NCBI RefSeq assembly: GCF_030376605.1
Contig: NZ_JARRAE010000019.1
Location: 1 to 53,980, forward strand
Reading direction: 5' to 3'
Length of the DNA stretch: 53,980 bases
Source: Pseudochrobactrum sp. sp1633
GTDB taxonomy: Bacteria; Pseudomonadota; Alphaproteobacteria; Rhizobiales; Rhizobiaceae
Part shown: piece by piece, positions 2-15,103 of the stretch
How the letters are laid out: each line of letters starts with the position of its first letter
How positions within the stretch are numbered: position 1 is the stretch's first letter
Made by a program: the position numbers and the translations under genes
The notes under the pieces: generated by a model
The model's input: only the letters and a program-made list of their open reading frames with translations
The model's database searches: none
Told to the model about the DNA's origin: nothing

Positions 2-346
2 TCGCTGGAAGTACCATTAACCTGCGCCCGCGTTGTACTCTATGGCAAGCCGGACATGGTGCCGCTGGACAAGCCAACAGCTGAAGTTGCAGCTGTTGCC
101 AAGAAGGACATGGCGATTGGTGAGACACTCGATGCAATTGGTGAATATTGCTACCGCGCATGGATCATGACTGCCGGTGAAGCCCGCGCTGCCAAGGCTA
201 TTCCGTGCGGCTTGTTGCAGGGTGGCACAGTGACCGCCCCGATCAAAAAGGGTGAGCTGATCACCTATGCCAATGCTGCTGTTGCCGCAGGTTCCAAGAT
301 CGCAGAACTGCGCGCCCGTCAGGACAAGCTGGTCTACGGCGTTTGA
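2..346 (+). CDS. SAF-domain oxidoreductase, DRL/DXR-II-like (5' end outside window)
   Basis: Only the last 114 codons are in the window; the frame is open to the left edge and ends with TGA at 344-346. The visible part matches the C-terminal SAF domain of the 'predicted homoserine dehydrogenase with SAF domain' family (COG4091): a conserved stretch around LDAIGEYCYRAWI, then GLLQGGTVTAPIKKGELITY. In Brucella a member of this family (DRL, also called DXR-II) interconverts 1-deoxyxylulose 5-phosphate and 2-C-methylerythritol 4-phosphate with NADP(H). The N-terminal Rossmann domain is not visible, so the substrate cannot be read here. The next gene starts 71 bases downstream on the same strand, so cotranscription with the acetoin-dehydrogenase-like genes is likely. 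Family is fairly sure; the DRL function is inferred. Confidence 0.7.
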   Translation, partial: SLEVPLTCARVVLYGKPDMVPLDKPTAEVAAVAKKDMAIGETLDAIGEYCYRAWIMTAGEARAAKAIPCGLLQGGTVTAPIKKGELITYANAAVAAGSKIAELRARQDKLVYGV

Positions 347-369
347 TATTTTGAATTTGATAATACGGC

Positions 370-396
370 CTCATCAGGCTCCCCCGATCTGATGAG
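370..396 (+). other. Intercistronic hairpin before the E1 alpha gene
   Basis: Arms CTCATCAG (370-377) and CTGATGAG (389-396) are a perfect 8-bp inverted repeat around an 11-base loop. No T-run follows, so it is not a convincing intrinsic terminator. It could adjust expression or mRNA stability between the oxidoreductase and the E1 alpha gene. Confidence 0.45.
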
Positions 397-417
397 TGCC
401 TTGAGGAGTAAACTTTG

Positions 418-1455
418 ATGGCTCAGGTCAAGAAGTCTCAGACGGAAGATGGCGTAAAGGGTGACCTGCGCAATCTGCCTTTTGCTTTCCGTGAATATTC
501 ACCGGAAAAGCTGAAAGAAGCGCTGCATAAAATGTATCTCATCCGCCGCTTTGAAGAAGGCGCGGAAGAAAGCTACACCCGTGGTCTTATCCACGGCACG
601 ATGCATTTGTCTATCGGTCAGGAAGCCAGCGCTATGGGCATCTGCCTGCCGCTGGAAGAGAATGACATGATCGGCTCGACCCATCGCGGTCACGGGCATT
701 GCATTGCCAAAGGCGCGGATATCGGCCGTATGTTTGCTGAGTTCTTCGGCAAGGAAACCGGTTATTGCAAAGGCCGTGGCGGCTCAATGCATATTGCGGA
801 CGTCTCCAAGGGCAATCTCGGCGCCAATGGTATCGTCGGCGGCGGTATTCCGATTGCTGTCGGTGCTGCGCTCTCAGCCAAGAAACAGAAAAACGGCAAG
901 GTCGTTATTTCCTTCTTCGGTGATGGTGCCAACAATGAAGGCGCATTCCACGAGGCGCTGAATATGGCTTCGATCTGGAAGCTGCCGGTGGTTTTCGTTT
1001 GTGAAAACAATGGCTACGGCATGTCCACTTCTACCAAGCGCTCGACAGCGGTTGAAAATATTGCTGACCGTGCTGTCGCTTATAATATGCCGGGTGTGAT
1101 CGTTGACGGTAACAATCTCTCTGATGTGGCTGAAGCCGCTCATGAGGCGATTGAACGTGCACGTCGCGGTGAGGGGCCAACCCTGATCGAAAACAAGACC
1201 TATCGTTTGCGCGGCCATTCCAAGAGTGACCGCAATCGTTACCGTACCAAGGAAGAGATCGAGGATTGGGCGACCAATCGTGATCCGATTGCCCGTTTCG
1301 AGGCAGATCTTAAGGAATACGGCTTCATCACCGATGCCGAAGTTGAAACAATCCGCGCCAATGTCGAGAAAGAGATTGCTGAGGCTATCGAGTTCGCCAA
1401 GAACAGCCCTTCGCCTGATCTCTCCAATCTGACACGCGACGTATACACGGACTGA
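418..1455 (+). CDS. acoA: TPP-dependent dehydrogenase E1 alpha (acetoin/pyruvate dehydrogenase type)
   Basis: This is the alpha subunit of a thiamine-diphosphate dehydrogenase E1. With the beta subunit it cleaves or decarboxylates a 2-oxo compound or methyl ketol and passes the acyl group to lipoyl-E2. The TPP/Mg motif is present: GDG near residue 168 and ENN about 27 residues later. The HRGHGH active-site loop is near residue 90. Length (345 aa) is normal for PdhA/AcoA. ATG at 418 is preferred over the in-frame TTG at 415 because GAGGAG at 403-408 is well spaced. The beta gene follows after 7 bases and the E2 has the acetoin-dehydrogenase architecture, so AcoA is a better name than PdhA. The true substrate is open; 1-deoxyxylulose 5-phosphate is considered in the findings. 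Confidence 0.85.
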
Positions 1456-1462
1456 TAGAAAA

Positions 1463-2461
1463 ATGGACACGACAATCCGTGAGTTGAGTTATTCGCAGGC
1501 TATTCAGGAAGCTATGGCAATCGCTATGGAGCGCGATGACCGCGTATTCCTGATGGGTGAAGATATTGGTGTTTACGGCGGTGCCTTTCAGGTCACCGGC
1601 GATCTGGTGCATCGTTTCGGTGAAGACCGCGTGATGGATACGCCGATCTCCGAACTTGGTGGTGCCGGTGTGGCCGTCGGTGCGGCACTGACCGGTATGC
1701 GCCCGATTTTTGAATTTCAGTTCTCTGATTTTGCGGCGCTCGCTATGGAGCAGATCGTTAATCAGGCGGCAAAAATCCGCTATATGCTCGGCGGCGCGGT
1801 TTCCGTGCCTCTGGTGATGCGTTTTCCTGCGGGTTCCGGCACCGGTGCTGCGGCGCAGCACAGCCAGAGCATTGAAGCATGGCTTGGTCATGTGCCGGGT
1901 TTGAAGGTTATTCAGCCTGCAACCCCGCATGATGTTAAAGGCATGTTGCTGGCAGCGGTTGAAGATCCGGATCCGGTGATGATCTTTGAGCACAAGCTGC
2001 TCTACAAGATGAAAGGACCTGTTCCTGAGGGCTATTATACTGTGCCGATCGGCAAGGCCGAAGTGGTGCGTGAAGGAACAGACCTGACAATCGTCGCAAC
2101 GGCAATCATGGTGCATAAAGCGCTTGATGCAGCGGCTGAGCTGGCCAAAGAAGGCATCAATGTTGAGGTGATTGATCTGCGCACCGTACGCCCGATTGAT
2201 CGCGATACCATCATTGCCAGCGTTAAAAAGACCTCGAAACTGATGTGTGTTTATGAGGCAGTGAAGACGCTGGGTATCGGCGCGGAAATCAGTGCGCTTG
2301 TCGCTGAAAGCGATGCATTTGATTATCTCGATGCTCCGATTATCCGTCTTGGCGGCGCGGAAACACCAATTCCTTATAATCCTGATCTTGAACGGGCAAC
2401 GGTACCGCAGGTGCCGGATATTCTGAAAAGCGCCCGTGATCTCGTGAAGGGAGTGCGCTAG
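1463..2461 (+). CDS. acoB: TPP-dependent dehydrogenase E1 beta (acetoin/pyruvate dehydrogenase type)
   Basis: This is the beta subunit of the heterotetrameric E1, forming the TPP site together with the alpha chain. The whole 332-residue protein is colinear with PdhB/AcoB: an N-terminal transketolase pyrimidine-binding domain ([32 protein letters not shown]) and a C-terminal transketolase domain ([12 protein letters not shown]). The start lies 7 bases after the alpha stop and the stop lies 2 bases before the E2 ATG, so the three genes are almost certainly translated from one message. No dihydrolipoamide dehydrogenase (E3) gene is in the window, so E3 must be encoded elsewhere. Confidence 0.88.
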
Positions 2462-2463
2462 TC

Positions 2464-3798
2464 ATGGCTGTCGAAGTCATCCTGCCTAAAGTTGATATGG
2501 ATATGGAGACCGGCCAGATCTCGCGCTGGTACGCCAAGGATGGCGATACGGTCACCAAAGGGCAGTTGCTGTTCGAAATTGAAACAGACAAAGCCGCTAT
2601 GGAAGTGGATGCGCCTGCCTCCGGTATTCTCGGCGATGTGTCTGCTGAGGAAGGTGCAGTTGTGCCTGTCGGGCAGGCCGTTGCATGGATTTATGCTGAA
2701 GGCGAAGAGCGCAAGGCTGTTAGCAAACCGGTTGCTGAACCGGTTGTTGAGCCACAAGCAACGCAACCTTTGGTCTCTGAAGCCCCCGCTGTGCAGCCGG
2801 TAGTTACCCCCGCTCCGGTTGCACAGACTGATATTGCAGGCGTCCGCGCAACACCGCTGGCACGCAGACTTGCGAAAGATGCCGGCCTTGATTTGAGTGC
2901 GGTGCATGGTTCCGGCCCTAAAGGTCGTATCCAGAAGAAGGACGTTGAGGCCAATCTGGCATCAGCAGCCCCTGCTGCTCTGCCTGTCAGTGTTGCGGCA
3001 CCTCGTCCTGTTGTCACGTCACAGGCACAAGGCGCGCTCAATGCAGTTTGGTTGCGCCAAGGTGAAAGCGGGCAGTTGCCGCTTGTGCTGATCCACGGTT
3101 TTGCATCAGATCTGAATAGCTGGCGCATGCTGCTGGCAGGCGCAAGTCTTGGCAATCCGGTTTTGGCTGTTGATCTGCCGGCACATGGCGGTTCACCGCG
3201 ATATGTGCCTGAGAGTATTGATGCTATTGCCGCAAGTGTGGAAGCAACTCTGGTCACGCATGGTGTTGAGGCCTGTATTCTGGTCGGCCATTCGATGGGC
3301 GGTGCGGTTGCAGCGGTGACTGCGGCGCGCGGCTTTATCGATGTGCGCTCGCTGGTGCTGATTTCCTCTGCCGGTCTCGGCCCGCAGATTAATGGTGCCT
3401 TCCTGAACGGATTGGTCGGAGCAAAAAGCGAAGCAAGCATTGTGCCGTGGCTGAAGGAACTGTTCGCTGATGAAACGTTGCTTTCAAGAGCCTTCATCAA
3501 TGCAACCGTTGCGCAGGCGCAGGACGTTGAATTGCGTGCGGCGCAGGCCGGTCTTGCTGCGCAGTTGTGTGCTGACAGCACACAGACGTTTGAAATCCGC
3601 TCAAGTCTTGGCAACCTGAATATTCCGGTGCGACTGATTTTCGGTGCGCAGGATCGTATCATTCCTGTAGCCCATGCACATGGGTTGTCAGGTGCCGTCG
3701 GCGTACATGTGTTCCAGAATTGCGGACATATGCCTCAGCTGGAACAGCGTGATGCTGTGCTTCGTATTATCGGCGAGGTCAGCAGGGCTGCACGATAA
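2464..3798 (+). CDS. acoC: E2 subunit with lipoyl domain and alpha/beta-hydrolase domain (AcoC type)
   Basis: E2 core of the complex, 444 aa. Domains in order: a lipoyl domain at about 1-78 with the lipoylated Lys43 in ETDKAAME; a Pro/Ala/Val-rich linker; an E3-binding domain at about 127-165 (RATPLARRLAKDAGLDL, GSGPKGRIQKKDV); and an alpha/beta hydrolase fold from about 200 with HG at 211-212, nucleophile Ser277 in GHSMGG, Asp397 and His422. A real acetyltransferase domain (HXXXDG) is absent. This arrangement is typical of acetoin dehydrogenase E2 (AcoC), not of pyruvate dehydrogenase. It is the third gene of the operon and is followed by a terminator. It is the strongest evidence that the complex acts on a methyl ketol. 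Confidence 0.88.
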   Translation: MAVEVILPKVDMDMETGQISRWYAKDGDTVTKGQLLFEIETDKAAMEVDAPASGILGDVSAEEGAVVPVGQAVAWIYAEGEERKAVSKPVAEPVVEPQATQPLVSEAPAVQPVVTPAPVAQTDIAGVRATPLARRLAKDAGLDLSAVHGSGPKGRIQKKDVEANLASAAPAALPVSVAAPRPVVTSQAQGALNAVWLRQGESGQLPLVLIHGFASDLNSWRMLLAGASLGNPVLAVDLPAHGGSPRYVPESIDAIAASVEATLVTHGVEACILVGHSMGGAVAAVTAARGFIDVRSLVLISSAGLGPQINGAFLNGLVGAKSEASIVPWLKELFADETLLSRAFINATVAQAQDVELRAAQAGLAAQLCADSTQTFEIRSSLGNLNIPVRLIFGAQDRIIPVAHAHGLSGAVGVHVFQNCGHMPQLEQRDAVLRIIGEVSRAAR

Positions 3799-3852
3799 GA
3801 TTGCAGAGAGCAGGTCGCATACCGTTCCCTCTGTATGGCCTGTTATTCTGAT

Positions 3853-3907
3853 CACGCCCCCGCAAGCCGTTTGGTTATCCTTACGTGCTTCGGGGGTGTG
3901 TCTTTTT
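3853..3907 (+). terminator. Intrinsic terminator of the aco-like operon
   Basis: A long GC-rich stem pairs CACGCCCCCG (3853-3862) with CGGGGGTGTG (3891-3900), extended inward by AAGC/GCTT, and is followed by TCTTTTT. It closes the E1-E2 operon before the convergent gene at 3915. Confidence 0.75.
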
Positions 3908-3914
3908 GCTGAGT

Positions 3915-4562
3915 TTAATTGTGTGCGGGGCGGGTCAGTGCAGCGGAAGGATTATCCGCGCCGAGCGCTCTCTGGACAGCGGCGCGTGCGGAGGCAAAAT
4001 CAGGCATGACCCAATTGGGTTCCTGACCCAGAAACTTGTCGAGAAAAGCAATGGCAAAGCCCGGCATTTCTGACGCATTCTCACGATACGTCCACCATGT
4101 GCGTAGGTCATTGGCGCTCTGGTCGATGTCGGGGCTTGTGCCGAGTTCCTGCTCCAGCACAGCGGCAATCGCGCAAATGCAATAATTGGTATAGAGAAAG
4201 CCTTCCGGCCAGAAGCGGATGATGCCGGTGAGGTTTTCATGCTCGCCGGTGAGTGTTTTATCCGGTGCCGACACAGCTTTTGCAGGCGCAAGGCGGATCA
4301 ATTCTTTGAGAACCAGACCAGCCGCGAAGATGATGAAGTCCTTACGGTCGACAGCGGCATAATGCTTGTTCTGATTAACCAGCTCAATCCAGTTGAGAAA
4401 GGCTTCCGTCAGGCGCTTTTCATCAATGTCATAGCGTACCCCTGTCATCTCGGTGATGAGGTTGGCATGTTTGCGCAATGTCGCCCGAAACCAGCGCAAC
4501 TGCCGCAATCTGTGGCGCAGATCAGGCACATTTGTCATCTGGTTTTTAAACAGCAGATCCAT
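3915..4562 (-). CDS. Conserved-looking hypothetical protein, unknown function
   Basis: I do not recognise this 215-aa protein. It is predicted soluble, largely helical and charged, with aromatic-rich segments (RFWPEGFLYTNYCICAIAAV; LRTWWTYRENASEMPG) and no signal peptide. The ATG at 4562 is chosen because GAGGAG lies at 4575-4580. A longer frame to 4751 has no better signal and would run through the gutM promoter. It lies between the aco-like operon (convergent) and gutM (divergent), so it may be co-regulated with the PTS operon by the palindrome at 4686-4705. A role in polyol use or in sensing PTS state is only a guess from position. Confidence 0.6.
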   Translation of the reverse strand: MDLLFKNQMTNVPDLRHRLRQLRWFRATLRKHANLITEMTGVRYDIDEKRLTEAFLNWIELVNQNKHYAAVDRKDFIIFAAGLVLKELIRLAPAKAVSAPDKTLTGEHENLTGIIRFWPEGFLYTNYCICAIAAVLEQELGTSPDIDQSANDLRTWWTYRENASEMPGFAIAFLDKFLGQEPNWVMPDFASARAAVQRALGADNPSAALTRPAHN

Positions 4563-4682
4563 GATTTGCTCTTTCTCCTCACCGTGTTTTAATGCGGGCC
4601 CTTTATTGACAGCAATCATAAGCGATGACAGGAGAAATGTCATGATACATTCGCTTTGATCTGCGCGCTTTAAATATACATA

Positions 4683-4713
4683 TTGACATTTGAAAAAACA
4701 AATGTTCTCTAAT
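4683..4713 (+). promoter_or_regulatory. Putative gutM-PTS promoter with overlapping palindromic operator
   Basis: TTGACA (4683-4688) and TCTAAT (4708-4713), 19 bases apart, form a plausible sigma70 promoter for the PTS operon. A perfect palindrome, ACATTTG - six A - CAAATGT (4686-4705), covers the -35 and spacer. A further CATTTG half site lies at about 4728. A SorC-family regulator is encoded at 10563, so this is a candidate operator for it; no binding evidence is available. Confidence 0.5.
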
Positions 4714-4767
4714 TTAATAGGGAGAATGCATTTGTGACAGGTGTCGGGCAACGGGAGAAGATATCGT

Positions 4768-5202
4768 ATGGCGATATGGCAATGGGCACTACTTGCTTTG
4801 GCATTGCTCTGGGGATTCCAGTCTCTGGGCGTCTGGTTTCAAATGCGGCATTATACCGATGTCATGAAGGGCATCAGCAATAAATACAAAGACGGCTATG
4901 TTGGTGCAGGGCATATACGCGGCCGTTTTGGCAAGGGCGTTATTGTTTTGATTGTGGTGGATCGGGATTTGGTTGTGCGCAGAATGCTTGAAATGAGCGG
5001 GCGCACGGTCTTCGCTAAATTTGCCCGCCGCGATGCATATGAAGGCCTGACACTGGCACAGCTCCGCGAAAAGCTTGAACAGGGAGCGTTTGATGCCGGA
5101 GTTGCGCATGCTGTCCGTTCAGCCATTGAGCAGGCGGAGCGCCTTGCGGACCAGTCCGAAGAACAGTCAGGCCTGTCAGGCTTGAAAACAGTCGCAGTAT
5201 AA
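4768..5202 (+). CDS. gutM: Glucitol operon activator protein GutM
   Basis: GutM/SrlM family protein, 144 aa (the E. coli protein has about 119). It has one N-terminal membrane segment (residues 2-22, IWQWALLALALLWGFQSLGV). The family core follows: GYVGAGHIRGRFGKGVIVLIVVD and GRTVFAKF. In E. coli GutM activates the glucitol operon. Here it is the first gene of the PTS operon, 53 bases before the IIC gene. ATG at 4768 follows GGGAG at 4753-4757. A GTG at 4741 would only add nine residues before the membrane helix. The C-terminus after residue 115 is polar and poorly conserved. Confidence 0.85.
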   Translation: MAIWQWALLALALLWGFQSLGVWFQMRHYTDVMKGISNKYKDGYVGAGHIRGRFGKGVIVLIVVDRDLVVRRMLEMSGRTVFAKFARRDAYEGLTLAQLREKLEQGAFDAGVAHAVRSAIEQAERLADQSEEQSGLSGLKTVAV

Positions 5203-5255
5203 AAAGTTTTGAAGGGGAGGGCCGGACCGGCAGGTGCGGCAATCAGGGAGGTAAT

Positions 5256-6056
5256 ATGTCAATTACAGCAATGTTGGCACAACATGCTGACGTCACCATG
5301 CAATCCCTGCATCATGCGGGCGGGCTGGTGTCTGATGCAGTATTAAACGCAGGGCTGCACAGCAAAATGGCGATGCAGCAAAGCGGCAATGATCTCGTGG
5401 TTCTGGCGCAGGCCAGTACCGATACGGGAACTGCTGCTGCAACCGGCGGCAATATCACTGTCGACCAGTTTCGTGAGCGCCTGCAGAATGTGCAGCAGGA
5501 AGAGCAGCTCGGCTGGCTGACCGCTTTGGGCAAGCACTTTATCGGTGTTTTCCAGAAGGGCGGCGAAGTTCTGACCGGTTTTGTCACCGGTATCATTCCG
5601 ACGCTGATCGTGCTGATGACCGCTTTTTATGCGATCACCGAATTGGTGGGGGAAAAGCGTGTGCATGGTCTGGCGCGCGGTGCCGGACGTATTGCGCTGA
5701 CACGCTACACAGTCTTGCCACTGCTTTCGGTCTTCTTTCTCACAAACCCGATGGCCTATACATTCGGCTCATTTCTTGAAGAAAAGCATAAGCCTGCATT
5801 CTACGATGCCGCGGTTTCCTATGTGCACCCGCCGCTTGGCCTGTTTCCGCATATCAATCCGGGCGAATATTTCGTCTGGGGTGGCATTCTTGTTGCCCTG
5901 CTGGAACTGGAAAAGAAAGGCGCTGTTCCGGGTGGTTATCATATCACCGTTGCGATCTGGTACGCGCTGGTCGGTCTCGTGGTTATCCTGCTTAAAGGCA
6001 TGCTGACAGAACGTATTACCGCCATTATGGCGCGCCGTCAGGGCATTGAGCTCTAA
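5256..6056 (+). CDS. srlA: PTS glucitol/sorbitol-type EIIC subunit with N-terminal extension
   Basis: Membrane subunit IIC of a glucitol-family PTS transporter. The family part begins at about residue 88 (LGKHFIGVFQKGGEVLTGFVTGI) and keeps the signatures FLTNPMAYTFGSFLEEKHKP and GLFPHINPGEYFVWGG. It has several membrane helices. At 266 aa it is about 80 residues longer than E. coli SrlA (187); the extra N-terminal segment is low in complexity and rich in Ala, Gln and His. The start is supported by a strong AGGGAGGT eight bases upstream, so the extension appears real. IIB follows 19 bases after the stop. Substrate specificity within the family (glucitol or another polyol) cannot be read directly. 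Confidence 0.9.
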   Translation: MSITAMLAQHADVTMQSLHHAGGLVSDAVLNAGLHSKMAMQQSGNDLVVLAQASTDTGTAAATGGNITVDQFRERLQNVQQEEQLGWLTALGKHFIGVFQKGGEVLTGFVTGIIPTLIVLMTAFYAITELVGEKRVHGLARGAGRIALTRYTVLPLLSVFFLTNPMAYTFGSFLEEKHKPAFYDAAVSYVHPPLGLFPHINPGEYFVWGGILVALLELEKKGAVPGGYHITVAIWYALVGLVVILLKGMLTERITAIMARRQGIEL

Positions 6057-6075
6057 GACGGGCGGGAGGGGAAAA

Positions 6076-7068
6076 ATGGCAAAAACCTATAAATCCGTAA
6101 CGATTAATCCGGGCTCCGGCGGTTGGGGCGGCCCGCTGACCATTCAGCCGACCGATCAGCGTAACAAGGTTGTTTCTGTCACCGGTGGCGGTATTCATCC
6201 GATTGCCCGCCAGATTGCAGACCTGACCGGCGCTGAAGCGGTGGACGGCTTTAAAGCGCCGCCGATTGAAAGCGAAATGGCCGTTGTGGTCGTGGATTGC
6301 GGCGGTACAGCGCGTTGTGGTGTTTATCCGCGCAAACGTATTCCGACCGTTAATGTCATGCCGGTTGGTCAGTCAGGGCCATTGGCACAGTATATTACCG
6401 AAGACATTTATGTGTCCGGTGTGAAGTCTGAGAATATTGTGGCCGCAGACGGTTCCGCACCGGCAGCAGCTGCTGCTTCTCATGCCAAAACAGAGGCTCC
6501 TGCCGCTGCACCGGTTGAACAGCCTTCTGAAGGCGGTATTATCGGCTTTATCAGCAGTGTCGGCCGTGTAATGGGCGGGATTGTCGGCGTGTTCTTCAAT
6601 GCCGGTCGCCGTACCATTGATCAGGTTATCCGTAACGTATTGCCGTTTATGGCCTTCGTTACCATGCTGATCGGTTTCATCCTCTACACCGGTATCGGCG
6701 ATATTCTTGCGCAGCCACTGGGGCCGCTTGCCAATAATATTATTGGTTTGCTGATCCTGTCTGCAATTTGTGGTCTGCCGTTCCTGTCACCGGTGCTAGG
6801 ACCCGGCGCGGTTATTGCGCAGGTGGTTGGTGTGGCCATTATCGGCCCGCAAATTGCCAATGGCACAATCGCACCGGCAATGGCTCTGCCAGCGCTGTTT
6901 GCCTATAATACACAGGTCGGTTGTGACTTTGTGCCGGTTGGTCTGGCGCTGGGTGAAGCCAAGCCTAAAACCATCGAAATCGGTGTTCCTGCGGTTCTGA
7001 TCAGCCGTCAGATCATGGGGCCGGTTTCTGTGCTGATTGCATGGGCTGTGAGCCTGATGGTTCTTTAA
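6076..7068 (+). CDS. srlE: PTS glucitol/sorbitol-type EIIB(C) subunit
   Basis: IIB domain fused to the second membrane part of the glucitol PTS, as in E. coli SrlE (330 aa here, about 319 there). The phosphocysteine region is DCGGTARCGVYPRKRIPT, about residues 76-93, followed by GQSGPLAQYITEDIYVSGV. An Ala/Pro-rich linker at about 130-155 joins the membrane domain (GIIGFISSVGRVMGGI onward, with FLSPVLGPGAVIAQVVGVAI). It takes phosphate from IIA and passes it to the imported polyol. ATG at 6076 is chosen because GGGAGGGG at 6064-6071 precedes it; a TTG at 6046 would overlap srlA. Confidence 0.9.
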   Translation: MAKTYKSVTINPGSGGWGGPLTIQPTDQRNKVVSVTGGGIHPIARQIADLTGAEAVDGFKAPPIESEMAVVVVDCGGTARCGVYPRKRIPTVNVMPVGQSGPLAQYITEDIYVSGVKSENIVAADGSAPAAAAASHAKTEAPAAAPVEQPSEGGIIGFISSVGRVMGGIVGVFFNAGRRTIDQVIRNVLPFMAFVTMLIGFILYTGIGDILAQPLGPLANNIIGLLILSAICGLPFLSPVLGPGAVIAQVVGVAIIGPQIANGTIAPAMALPALFAYNTQVGCDFVPVGLALGEAKPKTIEIGVPAVLISRQIMGPVSVLIAWAVSLMVL

Positions 7069-7080
7069 AATACACAATAC

Positions 7081-7117
7081 AAAGAGCGGTCTGGTCGCTA
7101 ATGACTGACCGCTCTTT
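7081..7117 (+). other. Intercistronic hairpin between srlE and srlB
   Basis: AAAGAGCGGTC (7081-7091) and GACCGCTCTTT (7107-7117) are a perfect 11-bp inverted repeat with a 15-base loop, in the only sizeable gap (89 bases) inside the PTS genes. It resembles a leaky terminator or an mRNA-stabilising element that would make IIA and HPr-EI levels differ from the membrane subunits. Confidence 0.7.
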
Positions 7118-7157
7118 CAATACAGACTTGAATGACAGATTGAAAGGTTCCGCCATT

Positions 7158-7538
7158 ATGACAATTTCTCTGAAAACGCGGGTGACCGCTGTGGGTCCTG
7201 AAGTGGCGGATCTGGCTGAGGGCGGTGTTGTTATCCTGTTCGCGGACGGCTCGCCATCAGAACTGGCTGAGGTTTCCGTTTTGCACGCTATTGAGTCTGA
7301 ACCGGCAGCGGATGCACCTGCGGTCGGCGCTACGATTAGCATTGGCACGCTCGATGCGACGATTACATCAGTTGGTTCCAGCGCTTGGCAGAAAGTGCTC
7401 GACATTGGCCATGTGGTGATTTCGTTCAACGGTGCTGGCAGTACTGACCGGCCGGGAGAAATTTGCGCTTCTGAAGTGGATACGCAGACACTGGTTGCAC
7501 AATTGCAGACCGGCACCAGCATTATCATTCGCGCATAA
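7158..7538 (+). CDS. srlB: PTS glucitol/sorbitol-type EIIA subunit
   Basis: Soluble IIA of the glucitol family, 126 aa (E. coli SrlB about 123). The likely phosphorylated residue is His43 in SELAEVSVLHAI. The conserved middle part GSSAWQKVLDIGHVVISFNG is present. ATG at 7158 is chosen because GAAAGG precedes it at 7142-7147 and family homology starts there; the frame upstream would run back into the srlE end and through the hairpin at 7081-7117. It receives phosphate from the HPr domain of the next gene, which starts 32 bases later. Confidence 0.9.
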   Translation: MTISLKTRVTAVGPEVADLAEGGVVILFADGSPSELAEVSVLHAIESEPAADAPAVGATISIGTLDATITSVGSSAWQKVLDIGHVVISFNGAGSTDRPGEICASEVDTQTLVAQLQTGTSIIIRA

Positions 7539-7570
7539 TTATTTTTATAACAGACTGAAACAGGTACAGC

Positions 7571-9541
7571 ATGGAACGCTCGACAATCGTACGGGTGCAT
7601 GAAGGACTGCATGCACGTCCGGCAACCCGCTTTGTAAAGCTGGCAAAAAGCTTTGAATCGGAAATCGAGATTGCAAAAGCGGGCAAAGGCGTCAGCGCAA
7701 AAAGCTCTGTAAAATTGATGCTGCTCGGCGTTAAAGAAAACGACACCGTGACTGTTCGCGCAGAAGGTGCGGACGCGATTGAAGCACTTGAAGCACTTAT
7801 CGGCTATCTGGAAAATCCGCATTCCGGCCTTGAGGACACTGCAGTTGCACCTGCTGTTGTCACTGAACCTGCACCTGTTGAGGTCAAAGCGCCGGTTGCC
7901 GGGTCAAACGAGCTGGATGATGCCGGTTTCATCAAGGGGATTGCGGCGAGTGAGGGCGTTGCTATCGGCACGGCCTATCCGTTTTTTCCGCCTGAGATCA
8001 CTGCCGGAAATAGAAATCTGAAACCGGATGAAATACCGGCAGAACTTATCCGTTTTCATGAGGCCGTGGCGCGCGTTCAGCAGCGCATGGATGCAGAACT
8101 GAAGACAGATAATCTGGCTGAAAGTGACCGCGGGATCATCGTCGCGCTCAAAGATATTGCTGCGGATGATACATTGCTGGAAGAGGCAACCGGTCTGATC
8201 AAAGGCGGCATGGATGCGCTCTCTGCTATGCTTGGCGCCAGTGCCGCCGTTGCCCGTCAGTTTTCGGAAATTGACGACCCTTATTTGAATGCCCGTGCGG
8301 ATGACGTGCAGGCGGTTGGCCGTCAAATCTGTCTGGCGCTGCTGGGGCAGGAGGATATCAGCCTTGAGAGCCTGCCGGATGGTGCAATTTTGATTGCTGA
8401 AGATATCGGCGCATGGGATTTTGCCCGCGCGCCTTTGAAAAAAATCGGTGCGATTGTGTGCGGTCATGGCGGCGCAACCTCTCATGTGGCGATTATTGCC
8501 CGTACACACGGTATTCCTGCGGTGCTGGGACTGGGCAAGGCTGTGCATGATCTCAGAGATGTGAAGCAGATTGCCGTTGATGGCAGCAAAGGTCGCGTTG
8601 TACCGGAGCCGGATGAAGCTGTTTGCGCAGATTTCAAAAATCGTATTGCGGCGGCACAGGCTGAAAAACAAGCGCTGGAAGCCTATCGCACGATGATTCC
8701 GCAGCGGGCAGACGGCACTGTGATTGAGGTCGCAGCCAATCTTGGTGCGCTTGAAGAGTTTGAAGTGGCGCAGGCTGCCGGTGCGATGGGCGTGGGGCTG
8801 TTTCGCACTGAACTGCTGTTCATGAAACATATGCATCTGCCGTCGGAAGATATGCAGACGGAAACTTATACGGCTTTGCTGAAAGCCTTTGCACCGCATT
8901 CTGTGATTGTCCGCACCCTTGATATCGGCGGCGATAAACCGATCGCCGGTATTGAGTTCCCGCAGGAAGAGAACCCGTTTCTCGGCTGGCGTGGCATTCG
9001 TATGTGCCTTGACCGACCGGATATTTTCAAGCCGCAACTGCGTGCCCTGCTGCGTTCAGCCGTTCATGGCAACCTCAAGGTGATGCTGCCGATGATTTCG
9101 GACGTGGAGGAAATCCGTGCAACCAAAGCGCTGATTGAAACATGCCGACAAGAGCTGGTCAGTGAAGGCAAGCCTTGTGGGAATTTCGATCTCGGCGTGA
9201 TGATTGAAACACCGGCAGCCGTTTTCGCAGCGCATCAGCTGGCGCAGGAAGCCGCTTTTTTCTCCATCGGCACCAATGATCTCACTCAATATGTGATGGC
9301 GGCTGACCGGTTGAACCCGACTGTTGCCAGACTGAATGACGTGTCTCATCCGGCTGTGATGGCTGCCATTGAGATGACAGCAAAAGCAGCGGTGCAAGCT
9401 GGTATTATGGTTGGTATGTGCGGTGAGGCGGCAGCACGACCGGACCTTATTTCGGAGTTCATCCGCATGGGGCTGACAGAGCTGAGTATGAGCCCCGCCT
9501 CAATCCCGCGCGCGAAGAAGCTGATTTCAGAGCTGAAATAA
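7571..9541 (+). CDS. HPr-Enzyme I fusion phosphotransferase dedicated to the PTS operon
   Basis: A 656-aa phosphoenolpyruvate-protein phosphotransferase with its own HPr. HPr is at residues 1-85, with His14 in EGLHARPA and a Ser45/46 region (SAKSSVKLMLLG). A Pro/Val/Ala linker runs to about 110. Enzyme I follows (FIKGIAASEGVAIGTAY), with phosphohistidine His305 in GGATSHVAIIART and PEP-binding motifs DIGGDKPI, GTNDLTQY and MCGEAAARPD with the catalytic Cys. No GAF domain is present, so it is not nitrogen-PTS PtsP. No IIA(Fru) domain is present, so it is not FruB. It probably gives the locus a self-contained phosphate chain from PEP to HPr to IIA. Alphaproteobacteria usually have only regulatory PTS proteins, so a sugar-transporting set is notable. 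Confidence 0.9.
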   Translation: MERSTIVRVHEGLHARPATRFVKLAKSFESEIEIAKAGKGVSAKSSVKLMLLGVKENDTVTVRAEGADAIEALEALIGYLENPHSGLEDTAVAPAVVTEPAPVEVKAPVAGSNELDDAGFIKGIAASEGVAIGTAYPFFPPEITAGNRNLKPDEIPAELIRFHEAVARVQQRMDAELKTDNLAESDRGIIVALKDIAADDTLLEEATGLIKGGMDALSAMLGASAAVARQFSEIDDPYLNARADDVQAVGRQICLALLGQEDISLESLPDGAILIAEDIGAWDFARAPLKKIGAIVCGHGGATSHVAIIARTHGIPAVLGLGKAVHDLRDVKQIAVDGSKGRVVPEPDEAVCADFKNRIAAAQAEKQALEAYRTMIPQRADGTVIEVAANLGALEEFEVAQAAGAMGVGLFRTELLFMKHMHLPSEDMQTETYTALLKAFAPHSVIVRTLDIGGDKPIAGIEFPQEENPFLGWRGIRMCLDRPDIFKPQLRALLRSAVHGNLKVMLPMISDVEEIRATKALIETCRQELVSEGKPCGNFDLGVMIETPAAVFAAHQLAQEAAFFSIGTNDLTQYVMAADRLNPTVARLNDVSHPAVMAAIEMTAKAAVQAGIMVGMCGEAAARPDLISEFIRMGLTELSMSPASIPRAKKLISELK

Positions 9542-9649: not shown

Positions 9650-10399
9650 TTATGGCAGATGAAAAATCAGCGTTGCGAATAATTTTTGCAACGCTGCATC
9701 GTCATTCTTCTCAAGGGCGGCCAGAATATGCGCGTTGCGTGCTTCCACCGCCAGCATTGCACTTTCCAGATTGTCGATATTTTCCATATCGACCGGTTTG
9801 GCCGTTGCTAAACCGCAAGCCAGACTGATCGCGGCAAAACCTGAGATCAGCGCGTTTTTAGGCAGGCTGTTTGTCTGGCGCACGGGTTGCTGGCGCAGTA
9901 TTTCCTGAAACAACGCTGCACAAAGCTTGGCACTTTCCTGAATGATATCGGTCGCAGGGGCATTCAACCTTGCAATATCAGCTCCGTATCGCTGGTTCAT
10001 GCTGTTGAAAATGCTGATGAAAACAGTTTCCTGAATGAGCGCGTTTTCAGCTTTATTGCGGCGCAGAACCTCTTTGGTCAGATAATACATATCGCGGTGA
10101 AAGGCGCGCTGTCCCTCACTGCCGGTTGTAAAATAGCTGTTCAGGCTTTGCACATCCGGTGCAGTTTCATGAATTGCAGGATTATTCGACACCAGAGAAA
10201 TCGAAATAGCCTCAGCCGTGCTAAAGGCTTTATCCATCACGGTTGCAGCCACATTGGCCGCACGGTTCAGCACCATTTCAGGAAGAACAGGCGTTTGTTC
10301 TGCCGTGTCAGCATTACGGGTGCGGCGCAGGGCATGGCGCAAGCCACGCAGCTTGTCCTTAATGTTAACGGCGATATCGTTCGGAAGGTCCTGTTTCAT
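9650..10399 (-). CDS. Hypothetical helical protein, unknown function
   Basis: I do not recognise this 249-aa protein. The N-terminus is basic (KDKLRGLRHALRRTRNAD) and the rest is predicted helical. A weakly hydrophobic stretch near residues 185-202 (LISGFAAISLACGLATAKP) is too weak to call a membrane helix. There is no signal peptide and no HTH. The start follows AGGA at a spacing of 9. It converges with the PTS operon and diverges from the SorC regulator gene at 10563, which suggests co-regulation. It has no sequence likeness to the other unknown at 3915-4562. Confidence 0.55.
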   Translation of the reverse strand: MKQDLPNDIAVNIKDKLRGLRHALRRTRNADTAEQTPVLPEMVLNRAANVAATVMDKAFSTAEAISISLVSNNPAIHETAPDVQSLNSYFTTGSEGQRAFHRDMYYLTKEVLRRNKAENALIQETVFISIFNSMNQRYGADIARLNAPATDIIQESAKLCAALFQEILRQQPVRQTNSLPKNALISGFAAISLACGLATAKPVDMENIDNLESAMLAVEARNAHILAALEKNDDAALQKLFATLIFHLP

Positions 10400-10562: not shown

Positions 10563-11597
10563 TTGAAAAGCACAAAGCGCAAGACGGGTCATTCCCAGGA
10601 AGCCATTGAACTGATTGTCGGATCAGAAAGCGTCGCCAGCGAGAATAAAACCAATCGTCTGCGTACCCGCGCGGCATGGATGTATTATGTCGAGCAGATG
10701 ACCCAGAATGATATTGCGGATGTGCTCGGTGTCGGCCGTGTTACGATTGTGCGCCTTCTGGCGGAAGCACGTGCCCGCAATGAAGTGAAAATCACGATTG
10801 AGGGCAAGCTGGCTGGTTTGACCGCGCTGGAGCGGATGCTGGAGCAGAGTTTCGGGCTGGAACGGGCAATTGTTGCGCCGCTGTCCACACCGGAGACAGA
10901 CCCGATTGTGCCGATCGCCGCTGCCACAGGGGCTTATCTTTCTGAAAAAGTGCAGCATGGTATGCGTATCGGTGTGGGCTGGGGGCGCACGCTGTCCGGC
11001 ACTTTGCAGCATATCGGTGCGCGCAGTCTCAATGATCTTAAAGTCATTTCACTTCTCGGCGGTATTGCGCAGCCACGCCGCTTCAATCCGCCGGAATTTG
11101 CCTGGCAGTTTGCGCAGATTTTTCAGGGTGAAGGCTATCTGATTCCTGCGCCTGCACTGGTCGACAGTCAGGAAACCCGCGAGGCGCTGATTGAGCGTTG
11201 CGGGCTAAAAGATGTTTTTGAAATGGCTGACGATCTGGACATGGTTTTGCTCAGCATCGGTGGTATTGAAACCGCCAGCAGCACATCCTATCGCGTGGGT
11301 CTGATTGATGAAGCGCAGAAGCGCTCCCTGATCGAGAACGGTGCGGTCGGCGATATGCTGTTTCACTTCTACGACCGCAATGGTGAAATTGTTTCTGATC
11401 CTGTGCATGAGCGTGTCATGTCGGTCAGTATGGATAAGCTGCAAAAAGCACCGGTGCGTATTCTCACTTCCGGCGGGCCGGAAAAGGTTGAGGCGCTTCT
11501 GGGGGCGATGAAACTGCTGCAACCAACCGTTTTCATTACGGATGAAGTGAGTGCGGCGGCCATGCTGAAGAAGCTGCAGGCGGAAAACGCTGCCTGA
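10563..11597 (+). CDS. SorC-family sugar-binding transcriptional regulator
   Basis: Regulator of the SorC/DeoR-like group, 344 aa. An N-terminal HTH lies at about residues 44-66 (MTQNDIADVLGVGRVTIVRLL). The effector domain has the NagB-like fold typical of SorC proteins and probably binds a phosphorylated sugar (GVGWGRTLSGTLQHI; VLLSIGGIE). The start is TTG at 10563, chosen for GGGGA at 10552-10556; the next Met (codon 40) would cut into the HTH region. It is transcribed alone, downstream of the PTS locus. It is the natural candidate to control the palindrome at 4686-4705, sensing the PTS product. The link is inferred from position. Confidence 0.85.
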   Translation: MKSTKRKTGHSQEAIELIVGSESVASENKTNRLRTRAAWMYYVEQMTQNDIADVLGVGRVTIVRLLAEARARNEVKITIEGKLAGLTALERMLEQSFGLERAIVAPLSTPETDPIVPIAAATGAYLSEKVQHGMRIGVGWGRTLSGTLQHIGARSLNDLKVISLLGGIAQPRRFNPPEFAWQFAQIFQGEGYLIPAPALVDSQETREALIERCGLKDVFEMADDLDMVLLSIGGIETASSTSYRVGLIDEAQKRSLIENGAVGDMLFHFYDRNGEIVSDPVHERVMSVSMDKLQKAPVRILTSGGPEKVEALLGAMKLLQPTVFITDEVSAAAMLKKLQAENAA

Positions 11598-11714: not shown

Positions 11715-12947
11715 TTAAAGGGCATAGGCATTGCCGGTTTTGAGATGTTCCGTCTCAGCCGTTCTCTCCAGTTCTACGGCTTTAGGAACAGACAGCCAGA
11801 GCGCAATGGCAAAGCCGAAGGCACCGCCGCCAATCTTGCCCAGCAGCAGAGGCAGAATAATACTTGGCTGAAAATTGGCAGCAAAAGCCAGATGGTCGCC
11901 GAACATGAACGCCGCACAGACGGCAAAGGCAATCACCAGCACTTTATCCTTCGGGCGCATATCCCGCACCAGCCGGAACATTGCCAGAATATTGGCCGAG
12001 GCTGCCAATAGTCCGGCTGCGCCAACCGGTGTCAGGCCGATCTTGCTGCCGAGTTTCTCCATCGGCACTGCCAGAAATTTGTTGATCAGGTAAACCATCG
12101 GGAAAGCGCCGCTGAGCATAATGCCGATATAACCGGCGATCTCCAGCGCACGGAACTGATCTTCCTCATCGGCAATGATCGGTGCGAAAGACCACTTTCC
12201 GAACAGCGTGGTGAATATGGATGTGAAATATTCAACAATGGAGAAGACCAGTACCAGAGTGATCGCCGCATACATGAGGCGTCCGAACCACAAGAAGCCG
12301 GTAATCATCTGATTAGGGAAGAATTTAAGTCCGCCTGCGATGGCCAGACAAAAGATAATGAGCGGAGACATATTCTGCAAAATAACCGGCAGAGATAATG
12401 TTGTTTGCTGTATGGCATCGCCACTCGCGGCCACATCCGGACGGATGCTCACATCAAACAGCATGATGCTGATCGAGGCGATAAACACACCAACCGGTAT
12501 GCTCAATATGCCGGACATGATGCCCAGAGCCATATATTTATGGTCTTTCTTCTCCAGCATGGCGAGGCCTACCGGTATGGAGAAGATGATAGTTGCCCCC
12601 GCCATAAAGCCGGTGATTGTTGCCATGATCCAGCCATCCGGTGACTGGGCAAGCGCTTTGGCCAGTTGATAGCCGCCCATATCGGCAGCAATAATCGTGG
12701 TTGCGGCGAGTGCCGGATCTGCACCAAGCGCATTAAATAACGGCCCCACCATTGTGCTGATAAAAGACGACAGAAAAGGAATAGAGGCCATAATGCCTGC
12801 AACGGGAATGAAGATCGGGCCGATACTGTGCAGGCCTTCGATGAATTCTTTCCCTAACCCTTTTTCACTATCACGAATGGAAGCGATGGCTCCGGCAATT
12901 GCACAGGCCATGATGATGTAAATTACGATTGTACCAATATGTGCCAT
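11715..12947 (-). CDS. eutH: EutH-family permease
   Basis: Integral membrane protein of the EutH family (410 aa; E. coli EutH about 408) with about ten hydrophobic segments and recognisable stretches AADMGGYQLAKALAQSPDGW, MLSGAFPMVYLI and MFGDHLAFAA. EutH is known as an ethanolamine permease in gut bacteria. No other eut gene (ammonia lyase, microcompartment, EutR) is nearby. Instead it is the last gene of an operon with a flavin oxidase and an SDR, so it may carry another small hydroxylated substrate. The start is supported by GGGAA five bases upstream. The family call is firm; the substrate is not. Confidence 0.85.
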   Translation of the reverse strand: MAHIGTIVIYIIMACAIAGAIASIRDSEKGLGKEFIEGLHSIGPIFIPVAGIMASIPFLSSFISTMVGPLFNALGADPALAATTIIAADMGGYQLAKALAQSPDGWIMATITGFMAGATIIFSIPVGLAMLEKKDHKYMALGIMSGILSIPVGVFIASISIMLFDVSIRPDVAASGDAIQQTTLSLPVILQNMSPLIIFCLAIAGGLKFFPNQMITGFLWFGRLMYAAITLVLVFSIVEYFTSIFTTLFGKWSFAPIIADEEDQFRALEIAGYIGIMLSGAFPMVYLINKFLAVPMEKLGSKIGLTPVGAAGLLAASANILAMFRLVRDMRPKDKVLVIAFAVCAAFMFGDHLAFAANFQPSIILPLLLGKIGGGAFGFAIALWLSVPKAVELERTAETEHLKTGNAYAL

Positions 12948-14335: not shown

Positions 14336-15103
14336 TCATATGGCTGTGTAGGCATTATCGGCGAATAAATGTGTGCCGTTGACAAAACTGGCATCATCGC
14401 TGGCGAGAAACAGGGCGGCAGAAGCCACTTCTTCCGGTGAGCAGAGACGACCTTGTGCCGCTTTGATCACATCCTCAGAAACATCAACGCCGAATTTGCT
14501 TAAATCTCGGACCTCGCGCTGTCCGTGTGCTGTGGCAATAAAGCCGGGGCATATGGCATTGGAGCGGATATTCCTGTCCCGAAACTCAACAGCAATGGCA
14601 CGCGCAAACATATGGCAGGCACCTTTGCTGGTGCAGTAGAGCACTTCCATTGGCGTGCCGACTACGCCGGAGATCGACGATGTCGAGACGATGCTGCCGT
14701 GACCTGCGGCGATCATGCCTGGCAAAACGGCTTTGGTTACGAGAAACATGCTTTTGACATTGACCGCCATGATGCGATCCCATTCCGTCTCGCTCGTCTC
14801 AAGAAACGGCCCCACGGAAAGAATACCGGCATGGTTCATCAATACGGTGATGGTACCAAGCTCACGGGTGACAGCTTGAACAGCATTTTGTACCTGTGCA
14901 CTGTCTGAAACATCGCAGGCCGTAAAATAAGCGGAACCGCCATTGCTGTTGATGTCCTCAGCGACTTTGGCGCCATTGCTGGAAGGCAGATCGAGTATCC
15001 CGACCTTTGCGCCTTCACGGGCAAAGAGCTGTGAAGCAGCAAGTCCGCACCCGCCGGCGCCTCCGGTAATCAATGCAGTTTTTCCGGCTAATCGTCCTGT
15101 CAT
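14336..15103 (-). CDS. Short-chain dehydrogenase/reductase (SDR)
   Basis: Classical SDR, 255 aa. The NAD(P) motif TGGAGGCG is at 13-20, NHAG at 90-93, catalytic Ser142/143, and Tyr156/Lys160 in YCTSK. The C-terminus FVNGTHLFADNAYTAI is typical. Asp38 in ILDLP after the second beta strand suggests preference for NAD. It is the first gene of the SDR - flavin oxidase - EutH operon; GGGAG lies 10-14 bases before the ATG. It probably oxidises a polyol or hydroxy intermediate. It could be a sorbitol-6-phosphate dehydrogenase analogue for the PTS, but it lies in a separate operon, so I do not name it so. Confidence 0.85.
   Translation of the reverse strand: MTGRLAGKTALITGGAGGCGLAASQLFAREGAKVGILDLPSSNGAKVAEDINSNGGSAYFTACDVSDSAQVQNAVQAVTRELGTITVLMNHAGILSVGPFLETSETEWDRIMAVNVKSMFLVTKAVLPGMIAAGHGSIVSTSSISGVVGTPMEVLYCTSKGACHMFARAIAVEFRDRNIRSNAICPGFIATAHGQREVRDLSKFGVDVSEDVIKAAQGRLCSPEEVASAALFLASDDASFVNGTHLFADNAYTAI

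Follow-up and report, generated by a model that had tools for sequence, protein, structure and literature searches.

The beginning of contig NZ_JARRAE010000019.1 of Pseudochrobactrum sp. sp1633 raises the question of what a DRL (DXR-II) oxidoreductase, a thiamine-diphosphate/lipoyl dehydrogenase complex (E1-E2) and a glucitol-type phosphotransferase system (PTS) could do together. A preliminary description of this stretch (the window, 53,980 nucleotides) had proposed that they run the first part of the 2-C-methyl-D-erythritol 4-phosphate (MEP) pathway backwards, and this idea is supported here, with corrections. The set probably constitutes a catabolic "reverse MEP" pathway, in which 2-C-methyl-D-erythritol would be converted into MEP, then into 1-deoxy-D-xylulose 5-phosphate (DXP) and finally into acetyl-CoA and glyceraldehyde 3-phosphate; the direction of the pathway, the imported substrate and the cleavage of DXP are what we infer from the sequence comparisons given below.

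All the parts that had been named, namely a DRL-like SAF protein, E1-E2, a glucitol PTS and an HPr-Enzyme I (EI) fusion, are present where they had been placed and match Pfam or NCBIfam models. They are listed here; G, C and L numbers in the text denote genomes, contigs and loci, and the window starts at the first base of contig C11, the first gene being therefore open at its 5' end.

2..346, + strand: DRL / DXR-II oxidoreductase, C-terminal 114 codons (SAF region); PF08666, 23.7 bits; 5' part lost at the contig end
415..1455, + strand: E1-alpha of the thiamine-diphosphate / lipoyl dehydrogenase complex; PF00676, 318 bits
1463..2461, + strand: E1-beta of the same complex; PF02779, PF02780
2464..3798, + strand: E2 with lipoyl, E3-binding and AcoC-type alpha/beta-hydrolase domains; PF00364, PF02817, PF12697; NF011457, 422 bits (cut-off 307)
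4741..5202, + strand: GutM family protein; PF06923, 87 bits
5256..6056, + strand: glucitol-type PTS IIC; PF03608; NF049923 over cut-off, TIGR00821 under
~6076..7068, + strand: glucitol-type PTS IIB(C); PF03612, PF07663; NF049924 over cut-off, TIGR00825 under; start chosen from the translation
~7158..7538, + strand: glucitol-type PTS IIA; PF03829; start chosen from the translation
7571..9541, + strand: HPr-Enzyme I fusion, dedicated phosphoryl donor; PF00381, PF05524, PF00391, PF02896

Identity of the oxidoreductase

In the window the DRL gene is readable only from about residue 326 on. Five same-genus genomes have longer DRL frames whose C-terminus agrees with the fragment at 95-96% identity, and in P. 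saccharolyticum a whole DRL gene (439 amino acids) precedes E1-alpha in the same gene order. Both DRL copies of the sp1633 assembly (the start of C11 and C55:164081-164419) are broken at contig ends, and no contig of that assembly matches PF21135, the DRL catalytic domain; hence the catalytic part could be read only in the relatives. The ending of both copies at contig edges looks as if a near-identical shared stretch had dropped out in the assembly.

The full same-genus DRL scores 224 bits with PF21135 and aligns with the Brucella DRL structures 3upl and 3upy over almost the whole length (3upl: E 3e-216, residues 1-435), with 75% identity to 3upl over 435 residues and identical residues at all 12 active-site or family positions compared. 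With the residue roles taken from section 6 of PMC3847144, 25 positions were examined, of which 17 are invariant across 87/87 set-linked DRL rows while the others vary in some rows. The ligand, dimer and divergence residues E174, F178, K191, K193, T229, H250 and R320 are present in all 87 set-linked rows, and K191, K193, T229, H250, F291, R320 and P330 are kept both there and in 46/46 solo DRLs, solo meaning that no E1 of >55% identity lies within 4.5 kb on the same strand (eleven 3.3-kb loci cover ~1.5 kb downstream). At T229, H250, F291, R320 and P330 a different residue stands in at least 6 of the 7 outgroup rows.

A DRL tree was calculated from 142 rows, including the same-genus rows and excluding the window fragment, from which rows identical in the last 300 residues, shorter than 380 residues or below 45% identity were left out (named outgroups excepted). 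The 87 set-linked rows, the 46 solo rows and 3upl form one group of 134, and all seven outgroup rows as well as Listeria fall outside it under a midpoint root; support is by SH-aLRT only and 50 of the 139 inner forks are open. Judged from its sequence, the oxidoreductase is a DRL, inside the DXR-II clade and apart from the DLO-type oxidoreductases. The family call made from the fragment has therefore held, as the full same-genus gene groups with Brucella DRL and not on a non-DRL branch. Two kinds of candidates were rejected as DRL: locus L113 (C1:296500-299000), whose 336-residue frame looks by eye like a Gfo/Idh-type oxidoreductase, and the class-level PF21135 matches, 58 fetched loci (L118-L175) that are 27-35% identical and DLO-like and were kept as a negative control.

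Conservation and linkage of the set

Relatives were retrieved by a search of the genome contig collection with the DRL fragment, the best 80 of 294 matches being fetched. DRL, E1-alpha and E1-beta occur together in 72 of these 80 loci, with E2 visible in 66 of the 72; a contig end truncates one locus, and the remaining seven are solo. An order-level survey then covered 198 genomes besides that of sp1633 (DRL at E 1e-80, E1-beta at E 1e-130) and revealed DRL in 35 and set-type E1-beta in 15. All 15 genomes with this E1-beta have DRL vs 20/183 of the others (Fisher 2.6e-13), and in 13 of the 15 it lies within ~3 kb of DRL. Set-type E1 genes are present in none of the 58 fetched DLO-like loci (0/58). 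Given these linkage counts, the arrangement is more than chance: DRL-E1-alpha-E1-beta-E2 is a conserved unit, which answers in the affirmative the question, raised by the preliminary description, of whether related genomes keep the gene set side by side. In a 397-genome draw from the phylum, the set E1-beta (E 1e-125) was found in 11 genomes including that of sp1633, exclusively in the family of the window; sets also occur outside that family within the order, and on plasmids of Acetobacteraceae and Paracoccus.

The E1-E2 complex

The E1 trees comprised set-linked rows thinned to a chosen list and eight reference rows. The comparison covered acetoin-type dehydrogenases (four), Bacillota complexes (two) and the two further E1 proteins of the genome itself. 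Set-linked E1-alpha forms one group with support 94/94 including the window row and 97/94 without it. Likewise, set-linked E1-beta forms one group (95/93), which holds at 89/87 when Priestia is added, Priestia being outside. Both E1 subunits stand apart from the 8 reference rows and are not orthologous to AcoA/AcoB, with 46-48% (E1-alpha) and 44-45% (E1-beta) identity to the four acetoin-type reference systems. Calling the complex acetoin-dehydrogenase-like was thus right for the AcoC-type E2 but not for the E1 subunits, and since these form a clade of their own the name acetoin dehydrogenase should be avoided. Across 105 E2 rows (some loci fetched twice, and L202 being a spurious 26% match), the type is AcoC-hydrolase in 33, acyltransferase in 46 and undecided in 26. 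Neither butanediol dehydrogenase, acetoin reductase nor a sigma-54 regulator is found by product name in six annotated sets. The translations display GDG...NN in E1-alpha, which we take to be the thiamine diphosphate motif, and ETDKA, presumably the lipoyl lysine motif, in E2, together with GHSMGG in its hydrolase domain; LHARPA in the HPr part is presumably the usual HPr motif.

Exchange of the uptake module

The version with PTS and HPr-EI is found in the window, Terrarubrum, Pseudoroseomonas, Rhizobium K15/93 and Paracoccus versutus, and a version with an ATP-binding cassette (ABC) sugar transporter and a PfkB kinase in S. meliloti Rm41, where it lies on pRM41A, in Rhizobium sophoriradicis and in others. 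A plasmid of Priestia aryabhattai (Bacillota) carries E1-alpha, E1-beta, E2, E3, SorC, a major facilitator superfamily (MFS) carrier, a second SorC, DRL and an FGGY kinase; the carrier belongs to the RbtT/DalT/CsbX family of pentitol type (534 bits, cut-off 375). The uptake module is exchanged while the DRL and E1-E2 core stays, and the three unrelated delivery routes to DRL point to a phosphorylated polyol as substrate, as MEP would be. Furthermore, the S. meliloti set carries its own E3 and a lipoyl synthase downstream, and a thiamine operon adjoins the set of Rhizobium K15/93.

As had been remarked from the window, a sorbitol-6-phosphate dehydrogenase was found neither in its operon (translations, Pfam and NCBIfam) nor, by product name, in the sets of six annotated relatives. 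A generic short-chain dehydrogenase/reductase at 14336-15103 on the opposite strand is below the cut-offs of the best 25 of its 172 matching models.

A galactitol-type PTS stands beside DRL in many Brucellaceae sets (L025:6692-8634, - strand), near the set of Rhizobium K15/93 (L228:1352-3612, - strand) and, in two Mesorhizobium genomes, next to a solo DRL (L194, L195). It may import a second related substrate.

Predicted pathway

The glucitol-type PTS would import 2-C-methyl-D-erythritol and phosphorylate a terminal hydroxyl, which would give MEP. DRL, whose activity class is known from the 75%-identical enzyme, would be run backwards, MEP being oxidised and rearranged to DXP with NADP+. E1-E2, together with an E3 encoded elsewhere in the genome, would then convert DXP into glyceraldehyde 3-phosphate, acetyl-CoA and NADH; DXP is proposed as its substrate because, as a 1-deoxyketose, it has the same CH3-CO-CHOH- head as acetoin. 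The equilibrium of DXR favours MEP, and the irreversible last step would pull that of DRL towards DXP. The SorC regulator past the PTS genes probably senses the phosphorylated polyol. By its title, a 1986 work of Yokota and Sasajima reportedly deals with the formation of 1-deoxyketoses by pyruvate dehydrogenase and acetoin dehydrogenase. The proposed DXP split would be the reverse of such a deoxyketose formation, with the acetyl group drawn off to CoA. Pyruvate dehydrogenase makes deoxyxylulose from pyruvate and glyceraldehyde, according to a passage of PMC3424233. Searches of an open-access library yielded no account of methylerythritol catabolism among the papers listed; the preliminary description likewise knew of no such pathway.

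DXR-I and second DRL copies

The preliminary description had also asked for a separate anabolic enzyme. No DXR-I was found in the sp1633 genome or in six other same-genus genomes (G002 being only 61% complete), yet sp1633 has a second DRL on the contig carrying pntAA-pntAB. Such an unlinked, second-type DRL is present in sp1633 and in 5/6 of the same-genus genomes: G003-G006 have it besides the set copy and G001 has only this type, while G002 has only the set copy. Where its flanks are seen in the genus, pntA is close by and E1 genes are lacking. Contig JAHREI010000007.1 (L103), labelled Bacillus subtilis SK6B4, also carries a Pseudochrobactrum-like DRL close to pntA; its match position is that of contig C7 of G001, and the label looks wrong.

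Across the order, DXR-I occurs in 6/35 DRL genomes vs 159/163 others (Fisher 1e-24). DXR-I being mostly absent from DRL genomes, DRL does replace it. Among the 13 linked-set genomes, three have DXR-I (G035, G380, G430), so that an isoprenoid role of their linked DRL is not needed, and seven without DXR-I have a second, unlinked DRL. In DXR-I-less genomes isoprenoids would thus often be made by this second copy. Three others of the 13 (G354, G444 and G439, the last 91% complete) have linked DRLs only and no DXR-I, and a C-terminal search added G024 as a further such case. IspF was found in 12/12 genomes checked, including these four; their linked DRL therefore probably makes MEP too, which argues for DXP and MEP as its substrates. 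In these genomes one enzyme probably serves both directions.

On the DRL tree, the label "in a set" needs 8 changes, as against 43.8 on average after shuffling. Brucella DRL (3upl) falls among solo copies. The solo DRLs of Pseudochrobactrum are nested inside the set-linked group, which suggests that biosynthesis in this genus came to rely on a copy of the catabolic gene.

DRL in other lineages

Two plasmid loci of Ligilactobacillus salivarius (L242:9001-16572 and L247:9001-16575) carry DRL, a glucitol-type PTS, GutM, a regulator, fructose-6-phosphate aldolase and transketolase. The last two enzymes suggest another route to split DXP, and this plasmid set is possibly a fermentative version of the pathway. 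On a Clostridioides difficile plasmid (L222:6013-11933) a SorC-type regulator, E1-alpha, E1-beta, E2 and E3 were observed, the E1-beta being 56% identical to that of the window, with no DRL within the stretch.

Section 7 of PMC3847144 reports DXR-II in Finegoldia and Anaerococcus without any other gene of the MEP or mevalonate pathways, with activity confirmed for Finegoldia. A catabolic role fits DXR-II in bacteria without other MEP genes. The words "catabol", "acetoin" and "PTS" do not occur in the main text of that paper. At about even confidence, we suppose that a catabolic reversal of the MEP entrance, whose lipoyl complex would be a new one that cleaves DXP and forms acetyl-CoA, occurs widely among Rhizobiales and arose a second time in Bacillota, there with a different carrier and kinase. 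On this view DXR-II may have originated, or survived, in catabolism, and its recruitment to isoprenoid synthesis would have followed where DXR-I was lost. Such a catabolic origin or retention would account for the scattered distribution of DXR-II and for its occurrence in bacteria that lack the MEP pathway.

Weighing of the alternatives

Several observations weigh against a reverse MEP pathway. Linked sets had been expected to track DXR-I presence, and this was not borne out, the share of E1-beta among DRL genomes being 4/6 with DXR-I and 11/29 without, with no clear difference (Fisher 0.37). G415 has a whole E1-E2-PTS set with DRL on another contig, and in G464 E1-beta lies 1 Mb away from DRL. 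Listeria and Ligilactobacillus loci combine DRL and a glucitol-type PTS with no E1-E2 in the stretch seen, and the splitting step is hence not universal. The Priestia E1-beta, though 61% identical to that of the window, does not join the set-linked group, and the E1-alpha of Priestia carries the annotation pdhA. PTS IIC and IIB exceed the NCBI glucitol equivalog cut-offs, though they are under two older subfamily models. Finally, the DRL outgroup shares K191 (7/7) and K193 (5/7).

As the substrate is not readable from sequence, the set could degrade another branched polyol (e.g. apiitol or 2-methylthreitol), DRL turning its phosphate into a ketose phosphate that E1-E2 splits, and the galactitol-type PTS next to many sets may serve a second substrate. 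This is unlikely, since DRL retains the DXR-II-specific T229, H250, F291, R320 and P330, the linked-only DRL of DXR-I-less genomes should supply MEP, and apiitol phosphate would presumably yield a pentulose phosphate, for which no lipoyl complex is needed. Less likely again is a set that serves isoprenoid synthesis, either by salvage of methylerythritol as MEP or through a DXS-like E1 that makes DXP for DRL. Such a role agrees with the lack of DXR-I in 29/35 DRL genomes of the order and with the DXP made by E. coli aceE mutants (PMC3424233), but E2, E3 and lipoyl synthase would be useless in a DXS-like reaction, and of the linked-set genomes three also have DXR-I and seven keep a second DRL.

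Import of free 1-deoxy-D-xylulose, phosphorylated to DXP and split while the set DRL only drains DXP to MEP, appears very improbable. A galactitol-type PTS does adjoin many sets and E. coli xylulokinase phosphorylates deoxyxylulose (PMC3424233), but DRL is the first gene of the quartet and persists when one uptake module is replaced by another, the carrier in Priestia is a pentitol-type one, and some sets have no galactitol PTS in the stretch shown. The lowest probability of all goes to neighbours that are separate systems, i.e. a housekeeping DRL that happens to adjoin a glucitol PTS and a dehydrogenase for acetoin or pyruvate, as the family names alone would have it. Linkage kept across several families, swapped uptake modules and the related gene arrangement carried by the Priestia plasmid speak against it, as does the grouping of E1 apart from the acetoin dehydrogenase references and from the genome's two other E1 proteins. 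The catabolic reverse MEP pathway is therefore the reading retained.

Other genes of the locus

Three further genes accompany the set.

3915..4562, - strand: hypA, conserved protein of no known family; no Pfam match; homologues at other sets
9650..10399, - strand: hypB, homologue of the hypA-paired gene in Sinorhizobium; no NCBIfam and no Pfam match; homologues at sets
10563..11597, + strand: SorC/DeoR-type sugar-binding transcriptional regulator; PF04198, 193 bits

SorC-like regulators also occur at sets of Brucella/Ochrobactrum, Terrarubrum and Rhizobium. Homologues of hypA are found at sets in Pseudochrobactrum, Mesorhizobium, Sinorhizobium and Rhizobium, in both the PTS and the ABC/kinase versions. 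hypB likewise accompanies both versions, S. meliloti Rm41 having two hypA-hypB pairs. The predicted structure of hypA is mostly helical (pLDDT 80), with no PDB match below E 1, and that of hypB is poor (pLDDT 51). Directly past the SorC regulator lies a gene for an EutH-type ethanolamine transporter (11715-12947, - strand; 653 bits, over cut-off).

Significance and comparison with known systems

Methylerythritol is a plant compound. If the proposal is true, it provides a route to eat methylerythritol, the set being found in many soil and plant bacteria, and it opens to testing the question of why DXR-II is found in some bacteria alongside the remaining MEP genes, or in their absence. A 2013 survey (PMC3847144, section 9) invoked gene dosage or tolerance to fosmidomycin for the redundancy of DXR-II. 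A catabolic role would also matter for drugs aimed at DXR-II, because a bacterium with the gene need not use it to make isoprenoids. Moreover, a passage of PMC11082906 proposes that 2-methyltetrols form from isoprene on wet leaves, so that the pathway could touch isoprene-derived carbon too.

Compared with known systems, the set shares with the first steps of the MEP pathway (DXS, DXR) the predicted intermediates DXP and MEP; unlike them, it is predicted to lead from MEP to acetyl-CoA and glyceraldehyde 3-phosphate, acetyl-CoA and NADH being made and not pyruvate used. With acetoin dehydrogenase (AcoABC/AcoL) it has in common the subunit plan, the AcoC-type E2 (NF011457 over cut-off) and, by prediction, the cleavage of a methyl ketol into an aldehyde and acetyl-CoA, whereas its E1 proteins group elsewhere. 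Like the glucitol (sorbitol) PTS operon it has a PTS of the same family and GutM, but here no sorbitol-6-phosphate dehydrogenase was found, HPr-EI is the operon's own, and the neighbours are DRL and E1-E2. Finally, its DRL closely resembles that of Brucella (DXR-II; PDB 3upl, 3upy; PF21135), at 75% identity and with the same residues at the 12 compared positions; the Brucella enzyme is known for MEP synthesis, whereas here DRL heads a catabolic-looking operon with its own uptake system and lipoyl complex.

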